Program-made: the position numbers and the translations under genes
The notes under the pieces: model-generated
Told to the model about the DNA's origin: nothing
Seen by the model: only the letters and a program-made list of their open reading frames with translations
Databases searched by the model: none
Shown here: positions 45,894 through 47,093 of the stretch, piece by piece
Numbering within the stretch: position 1 is the first letter of the stretch
Layout of the letters: the number at the start of each line of letters is the position of its first letter
Source of the DNA: Chloroflexota bacterium
GTDB lineage: Bacteria > Chloroflexota > Dormibacteria > CF-121
Direction: 5' to 3'
NCBI GenBank assembly: GCA_005881425.1
Contig: VBIC01000113.1
Span: 1 to 47,093, forward strand
Length of the DNA stretch: 47,093 nucleotides

Positions 45894-46502
45894 GTGCAGC
45901 CGGGAACCGCGGCTCCGGTAATCGACAGCGCCGGAGTAGAGGGCAAGATCGCCGGGATCGCGGCGATCCGGGTCCACGACCCGGTATTCAGTGAAGAGGT
46001 GTTCCTGGCCCAGGTCGAGCGCATCTTCTTCGCTGTGCTCGAGGCCTGGACAGCACTCAAGCCCGGGCTGAGCCAGGGAGTCATGGCTCCCGTGATCTGG
46101 GAGGAGCAGCGTTCTCAGATCCAGTCGTATCGCGCCGGCGGAAGACGCAACCCGCTCGACGGCCTCAGCCTGACCAGCGCCAACGTAGCCGGGGCATCGA
46201 GCGACGGTAAGGTGGACACGCTGACGGTGCGGATCAACGCGGCATCCTCCGATTACGACGTCGACTCCGCCGGACAGGTGGTCCGGGGCTCGAGGACGGT
46301 GGCAGACTGGACCGAAGACTGGATCTTCCAGCGCCCTGCCACGCTCACCACGGCGCCCGTGGGAACGATCGTCTCCCAGGAGTGTCCCAGCTGCGGGGCC
46401 CGGGTCACAGTCGACATCACCACCATCTGTCCCTTCTGCGGCGCGGCGGTGATCAGCGGCCGCTTCGGCTGGCTCCTGGCGCGGATCGACCGCGTGCTCT
46501 GA
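45894..46502 (+). CDS. Tim44-like domain protein with C-terminal zinc ribbon
   Basis: About 200 residues. The region DPVFSEEVFLAQVERIFFAVLEAW to DWTEDWIFQRPA matches the Tim44-like fold found in bacterial transport-related and membrane-associated proteins. The C-terminus carries a four-Cys zinc ribbon (CPSCG...CPFCG). The frame stays open upstream to 45735 with plausible N-terminal sequence (SIFSTLRRLGDWLDQ) starting around an ATC at 45783, but no ATG, GTG or TTG occurs there; CTG 45747 is in frame. GTG 45894 is therefore a minimum start. A strong hairpin terminator follows. Role unknown. Confidence 0.72.
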   Translation: MQPGTAAPVIDSAGVEGKIAGIAAIRVHDPVFSEEVFLAQVERIFFAVLEAWTALKPGLSQGVMAPVIWEEQRSQIQSYRAGGRRNPLDGLSLTSANVAGASSDGKVDTLTVRINAASSDYDVDSAGQVVRGSRTVADWTEDWIFQRPATLTTAPVGTIVSQECPSCGARVTVDITTICPFCGAAVISGRFGWLLARIDRVL

Positions 46503-46529
46503 TCCGGGCTGGGTCAAGCGCCGAAAAAC

Positions 46530-46563
46530 GGAAAACCGACCATCGCTCAGTGGTCGGTTTTCC
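46530..46563. terminator. intrinsic bidirectional terminator
   Basis: GGAAAACCGACCA (46530-46542) pairs perfectly with TGGTCGGTTTTCC (46551-46563) around an eight-base loop. The arm's A/T-rich ends supply T-runs in both directions. It follows the Tim44-like gene. Confidence 0.8.
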
Positions 46564-46647
46564 TGCCCCGTCTGGGGCCGCCCGCCGGCAGGCGGGCACA
46601 GCCATTGTCTCATTCCGGGCCCTCAGGCGTCCTTTCGTATTCCAGTC

Positions 46648-46678
46648 TTGACAGGAACGGTATCAGACAACCTATAAT
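46648..46678 (+). promoter_or_regulatory. strong sigma-70 promoter without a downstream gene
   Basis: TTGACA (46648-46653) and TATAAT (46673-46678) both match consensus perfectly, with a 19-base spacer. It reads rightwards into 110 bases without a credible coding frame and then antisense to radC. Confidence 0.6.
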
Positions 46679-46684
46679 GGCGTC

Positions 46685-46788
46685 GGTCTGATCGCTGCGG
46701 TCGCCCTGCCGGCCGGAAGGCGGCCTCGCCGACAGCCCAGGATGGGCCCTCGCGCCGGGGTCAATCGTTTCCCCCCGGCCGCGAGGCC
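46685..46788 (+). ncRNA. possible small RNA or structured region
   Basis: The segment after the consensus promoter has GTCGG/CCGAC pairing around GCC-rich repeats, then a strong hairpin: CCTCGCGCCGGGG (46748-46760) with CCCCGGCCGCGAGG (46773-46786), one base bulged. The hairpin is also directly downstream of the radC stop on the other strand and may be its terminator. I know of no matching RNA family. Confidence 0.25.
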
Positions 46789-47093
46789 TCACCAGCCGCC
46801 GCTCGAGCGCAGGCTGTGAAAGCGATGGGCGCTGATGACCAGGTGGTCGAGCACCTCGATCCCGAGCAGGCGGCCGGCTTCGCCCAGGTGGCGGGTCACC
46901 GCCAGGTCCTCGGGGCTTGGAGTCGGGTCCCCCGAAGGGTGGCTGTGCGCCAGCACGACCGCCGCGGCATTGTGCCGCAGGGCCGGCTCGAAGACGTCGC
47001 GCGGCTGCAGGGCGGCGACGTTGAGGCCGCCGAGCGCGACCGTCTCACAGCCGAGCGGCTGGTTGCGGGTGTTCAAGAGGAGGACGCAGAACC
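46789..47093 (-). CDS. radC: RadC family (JAB1/MPN-like) protein, 5' end outside window
   Basis: The C-terminal part of a RadC/UPF0758 protein. The metalloprotease-like JAMM motif is intact: AHSHPSGDPTPSPED. The preceding LNVAALQPRDVFEPALRHNAAAVVLAH is typical. The frame stays open to the window edge with family-like residues (FCVLLLNTRNQPLG), so the gene continues beyond base 47093 and the TTG at 47076 is internal. Despite its name, RadC has no established role in DNA repair. Confidence 0.9.
   Translation of the reverse strand, partial: FCVLLLNTRNQPLGCETVALGGLNVAALQPRDVFEPALRHNAAAVVLAHSHPSGDPTPSPEDLAVTRHLGEAGRLLGIEVLDHLVISAHRFHSLRSSGGW

Follow-up and report, generated by a model that had tools for sequence, protein, structure and literature searches.

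Three kinds of described RNA come closest to the locus analysed here: trans-acting intergenic small RNAs with an intrinsic terminator, cis-antisense RNAs, and the radC RNA motif (RF01754), which is located upstream of radC. The locus lies at the right-hand end of the window, that is, the whole 47,093-nt stretch of Chloroflexota DNA under analysis (contig VBIC01000113.1). The radC RNA motif is listed for Proteobacteria in an excerpt of PMC2864571. The present locus likewise holds a structured RNA element close to radC, but the element lies downstream of radC and in Chloroflexota; RF01754 has no match in the window, where the 5′ side of radC lies beyond the end, nor in relatives' loci that hold some of the radC 5′ side (L060 at least). 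With trans-acting intergenic small RNAs the element shares a promoter-like box, compact hairpins, a U-tract terminator, the lack of a notable coding frame and a narrow range, but the stem and loop of its terminator are invariant in sequence across genera and it has no Rfam match. As for cis-antisense RNAs, a plus-strand promoter does point into radC from the radC 3′ side, but this promoter is a predicted one and is missing or degenerate in five of 17 copies of the locus (L005, L007, L010, L015 and L060).

An Rfam check gave nothing in support of a known family: no hit in the window attains the gathering score of its family, the matches of a low-threshold search of 46480-46860 all fall far below the cut-offs, and four related loci yielded tRNA alone. 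The window itself contains no detectable tRNA or tmRNA. A full-text literature search found no small RNA described for this Chloroflexota group.

The genome of the window is a 2.92-Mb assembly (89.89% complete), and the window has a GC content of 69%. The C-terminal part of radC occupies 46789-47091 on the minus strand (Pfam RadC, E 6.1e-35) and is cut at the window end. Convergent with it runs a plus-strand gene with a Tim44-like domain at 45894-46502 (Pfam Tim44, E 1.3e-16), whose frame of 255 aa is open further upstream, leaving its start uncertain; by eye, the domain is followed by a zinc-ribbon-like CxxC...CxxC tail. The relatives that carry the locus are, by their names in the genome-contig scan records, Chloroflexi MAGs from related uncultured soil Chloroflexota. 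One contig (L060, JAVEEO010000305.1) is labelled Pseudonocardiales yet bears the Chloroflexota arrangement of radC and element, and is probably mis-binned. Genome G006 has two near-identical copies close to contig ends in one assembly (L012 on C148 and L019 on C85), which probably represent variants between strains or a duplicate created in assembly.

The likely explanation of this locus, in our view, is a minus-strand small RNA gene that occupies the space between radC and the convergent gene. The proposed gene (46523-46598) is defined by fold, alignment and covariance model R1, and would give an RNA of about 76-80 nt with three consecutive hairpins and a U-tract. It would be read from an extended -10 promoter, TGAGACAAT, at 46612-46604, with a start near 46598, a 5′ end placed from the position of the -10 box. 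All 16 aligned copies fit TGN-SASAAT here, and the invariant columns of alignment A1 (T15, G16, A19, A21, A22 and T23) correspond to TG and to positions 2, 4, 5 and 6 of the -10 hexamer; to judge from the alignment, they are the determinants of an extended -10. By eye, no clear -35 was seen for the small RNA.

Downstream of the box, the predicted transcript would fold into hairpin 1 (46579-46598, of the GCCCGCC-TGCC-GGCGGGC type), hairpin 2 (46565-46578, GCCCC-AGAC-GGGGC) and a terminator hairpin with a 13-bp stem and the 8-nt loop CTGAGCGA (46530-46563). It would end at the intrinsic terminator, 46563-46523, found by the terminator scan with 13 pairs and the tail GTTTTTC; the U-tract, CGTTTTTC, occupies 46523-46529, and its first C is part of the stem end. 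The same order is kept on the minus strand of all 16 copies, namely TGN-SASAAT, hairpin 1, hairpin 2, CAG and GGAAAACCGACCA-CTGAGCGA-TGGTCGGTTTTC, followed by C or T, G and at least four T. The fold has an energy of -49.5 kcal/mol, whereas shuffles average -29.2 (z -5.5), and none of 200 shuffles equals it. A coding role was rejected because the ATG before hairpin 1 hits a stop after three codons in L002 and L004, as read by eye. The earlier note had regarded 46530-46563 as a terminator isolating a plus-strand unit to its right. The terminator does exist; with its T-run on the minus strand, however, it ends leftward transcription and does not demonstrate such isolation. It rather appears to be the 3′ end of the separate minus-strand small RNA gene.

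The conservation of this element far exceeds that of the adjacent gene. Over 120 sequence pairs, the 39-nt core has a mean identity of 99.7%, versus a mean of 51% (minimum 35%) at fourfold-degenerate sites of radC, and the last part of radC has an overall identity of 82% in the same pairs. This comparison used 16 sequences, including L060 and dropping L012 as a near-duplicate of L019, which itself contributes merely 108 nt of radC. In the small RNA alignment (16 copies from 15 genomes), the loop and 12 of the 13 terminator pairs are the same in every copy, and these pairs are therefore uninformative on structure. Two-sided changes are confined to hairpin 1, where they affect two of seven pairs in one copy each, a result reached by 28 of 500 shuffles, while the covariation score is matched by seven of 500. 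Since covariation is weak, the case for an RNA is built on fold, conservation, the promoter-like box and a T-run present on one side only. The strongly conserved RNA-like element is this minus-strand neighbour of the plus-strand promoter.

In the genomes searched, the element is confined to one family and occurs together with radC. A DNA search with 46500-46830 in 61 genomes matched 18, of which 15 belong to the family of the window; apart from the window itself, these family matches cover around 46518-46624, i.e. the terminator and the bases to its right, and not the plus-strand promoter, and three further matches, in G007, G036 and G052, are weak and fall in other parts of the query. Model R1 was run on 110 genomes of the class with strict filters that can lose weak matches; 16 genomes have a match with E of at most 0.01, including 15 of the 18 family genomes at E 5e-19 or better. 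The sole match among the 92 genomes outside the family (G093, 27.9 bits, E 0.0013) differs in sequence and was taken as chance. An exact scan of GTDB contigs with a 22-base pattern returned 15 stretches, all of this group by context.

Among the same 110 genomes, radC was detected in the very 15 family genomes that carry the element and in 30 others, so both were found in 15 of 18 family genomes and neither in the remaining three. G002, which is 94% complete, has neither; it keeps the Tim44-like gene, whose 3′ neighbour is another one there. Neither was found in G007 and G012 (82% and 79% complete), where the absence may reflect assembly gaps. There is one locus per genome except for the two of G006. 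The reading outside the family covered 15 radC loci of another family, f2, out of the 30 radC-bearing genomes; none of the 14 with a usable 3′ flank has the element, 13 share another sequence right after radC and one has a third kind.

Most likely, the candidate small RNA is lineage-specific and acts in trans through its invariant hairpin. The terminator hairpin, together with the invariant bases that precede it, would be the probable working part, with a protein or, by pairing with the loop region CUGAGCGA, RNAs as partners. No exact second complement of this 12-nt region occurs in the window's own genome; seven places have one mismatch, so the search points to no target.

Facing away from the small RNA gene, with the two promoters back to back, is the plus-strand promoter TTGACA-N19-TATAAT (TTGACA at 46648-46653 and TATAAT at 46673-46678). 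The earlier note had called both hexamers perfect and rare, and rightly so: this is the sole exact TTGACA-N16-20-TATAAT in the genome (the reversed-pattern control gives none), whereas a first-order Markov model of the window, covering both strands and spacers of 15-20 nt, predicts 0.00018 perfect pairs per window and 0.011 per genome. The spacing of the window promoter is slightly off, at 19 nt versus 17-18 nt in 11 relatives, and a stock promoter scanner restricted to spacers of 16-18 nt did not report it. A promoter score of at least 9/12 is reached in 10 of 17 copies of the locus, all with spacers of 17-18 nt except the window.

Within the promoter lies a motif, TTGACA-N7-TATCA (46648-46665), that contains an operator-like imperfect dyad, TGACA-N7-TATCA. 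It is recognisable in 12 of 17 copies (seven exact, five differing at one or two positions). Across 18 family genomes it gives 19 matches, against one for the reversed pattern: seven at the radC locus, five before a 100-aa frame, three before a glutaredoxin-like frame and four elsewhere, one of the last falling inside a coding frame as judged by eye. In five genomes the 100-aa frame is followed by a response regulator of the OmpR type; the glutaredoxin-like frame was found in three (names assigned by eye). The copies at the two-component regulator locus and the glutaredoxin-like frame are L120, L113, L114, L115, L117, L111, L122 and L124. At these other family loci the motif sits in promoter orientation, and it may represent a shared operator or promoter type. 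Because the motif recurs both at this locus in relatives and elsewhere in the family, the plus-strand promoter is probably real and functional, and perhaps regulated via its spacer.

One reading of the product of this promoter, about evenly balanced in our estimate and compatible with the minus-strand small RNA gene, is a cis-antisense RNA with its start near 46685 that would run over the 3′ end of radC and tune radC expression. The uniqueness of the exact pair, the recurrence of the motif and of good promoter scores among the copies, and the presence of the same motif in promoter orientation before readable genes all speak for it. Against it stand the five copies with no or a degenerate promoter, the 19-nt spacer of the window, a -10 that is less conserved than the TATCA of the spacer, and the lack of both a conserved product and a plus-strand terminator. 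The antisense transcript into radC suggested by the earlier note thus stays plausible, the motif recurring in relatives and family, and the promoter with its operator-like spacer would probably make such an RNA in some family members.

The other product that had been proposed, a discrete small RNA downstream of the plus-strand promoter, is not borne out. The stretch beyond the promoter is variable, holds nothing that is conserved in all copies and has no plus-strand terminator. In four relatives (L002, L003, L006 and L011) the -10 and the radC stop codon are a mere 6-17 nt apart, as counted on the sequences. The two downstream pairings noticed before are present, but 46686-46830 folds about like shuffled sequence (z -1.36; 20 of 200 shuffles fold at least equally well), nothing out of the ordinary for DNA so rich in GC. 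A pattern search found, in the stretch from the promoter to radC, a hairpin with a conserved TCGTTTC loop in plus-strand letters, GAAACGA on the minus strand, in seven of 17 copies (46748-46787 in the window, and L004, L008, L009, L012, L014 and L019). The window stem differs from that of the relatives while the loop is kept. As a genome-wide repeat it was rejected, since 18 genomes have one match off the radC locus (G003 C40), and that one is unlike the hairpin.

It is possible, though we think it rather doubtful, that TTGACA-N7-TATCA serves not as a plus-strand promoter but as the place where a regulator of the minus-strand small RNA binds, some 70 bp ahead of the RNA start. With the RNA core as anchor, the distance from TTGACA-N6-NTATCA is 141-144 nt in 11 copies while the radC side varies, and in 11 sequences (L012 dropped) TATC is invariant whereas the -10 positions have 36-73% conservation and the flanks average 47-56%. 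In the window, however, the motif stands at 117 nt, four copies hold the RNA without the motif and one with a degenerate motif, and the promoter orientation of the motif at other loci also disagrees with such a role.

Unlikely, in turn, is that the minus-strand element is just the intrinsic terminator or a 3′UTR piece of radC and no independent gene. The element does lie just downstream of radC and on the same strand in all 16 copies read, and the two are present or missing together, but terminators have no need of an invariant stem and loop, and this one is preceded by two more hairpins and by an extended -10 whose determinants are invariant. That the stem never varies is not what one expects of a simple terminator and would fit a DNA site too, which counts against the small RNA reading; yet it is quite improbable that the core acts as DNA, as the site of a recombinase or terminator protein, for although it forms an invariant, perfect 13-8-13 inverted repeat (13-bp arms, 8-bp spacer) at one locus per genome, a geometry that we take to be like loxP or FRT, the conservation extends to the promoter box, hairpin 1 and the one-sided T-run, viral contigs yielded nothing for the 22-base core, a dif-like pattern (a weak test) has no match in the window's own genome, and no GC-skew turn, hence no sign of a replication terminus, was found at the site on the one contig inspected (C34 of G003, 147 kb).

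The minus-strand small RNA gene stands as a new, family-restricted candidate of a known general kind, unusually strongly conserved. At its broadest, and only tentatively, the locus may represent a two-RNA control unit for radC, in which new family-confined small RNAs linked to radC, with the terminator hairpin as their invariant working domain, face an operator-controlled divergent antisense promoter. It also cautions that a conserved terminator should not be taken as mere punctuation. To our knowledge, the cellular role of RadC is still unsettled, and a candidate RNA that is found only with radC and is more conserved than radC would therefore offer a concrete handle on that role.
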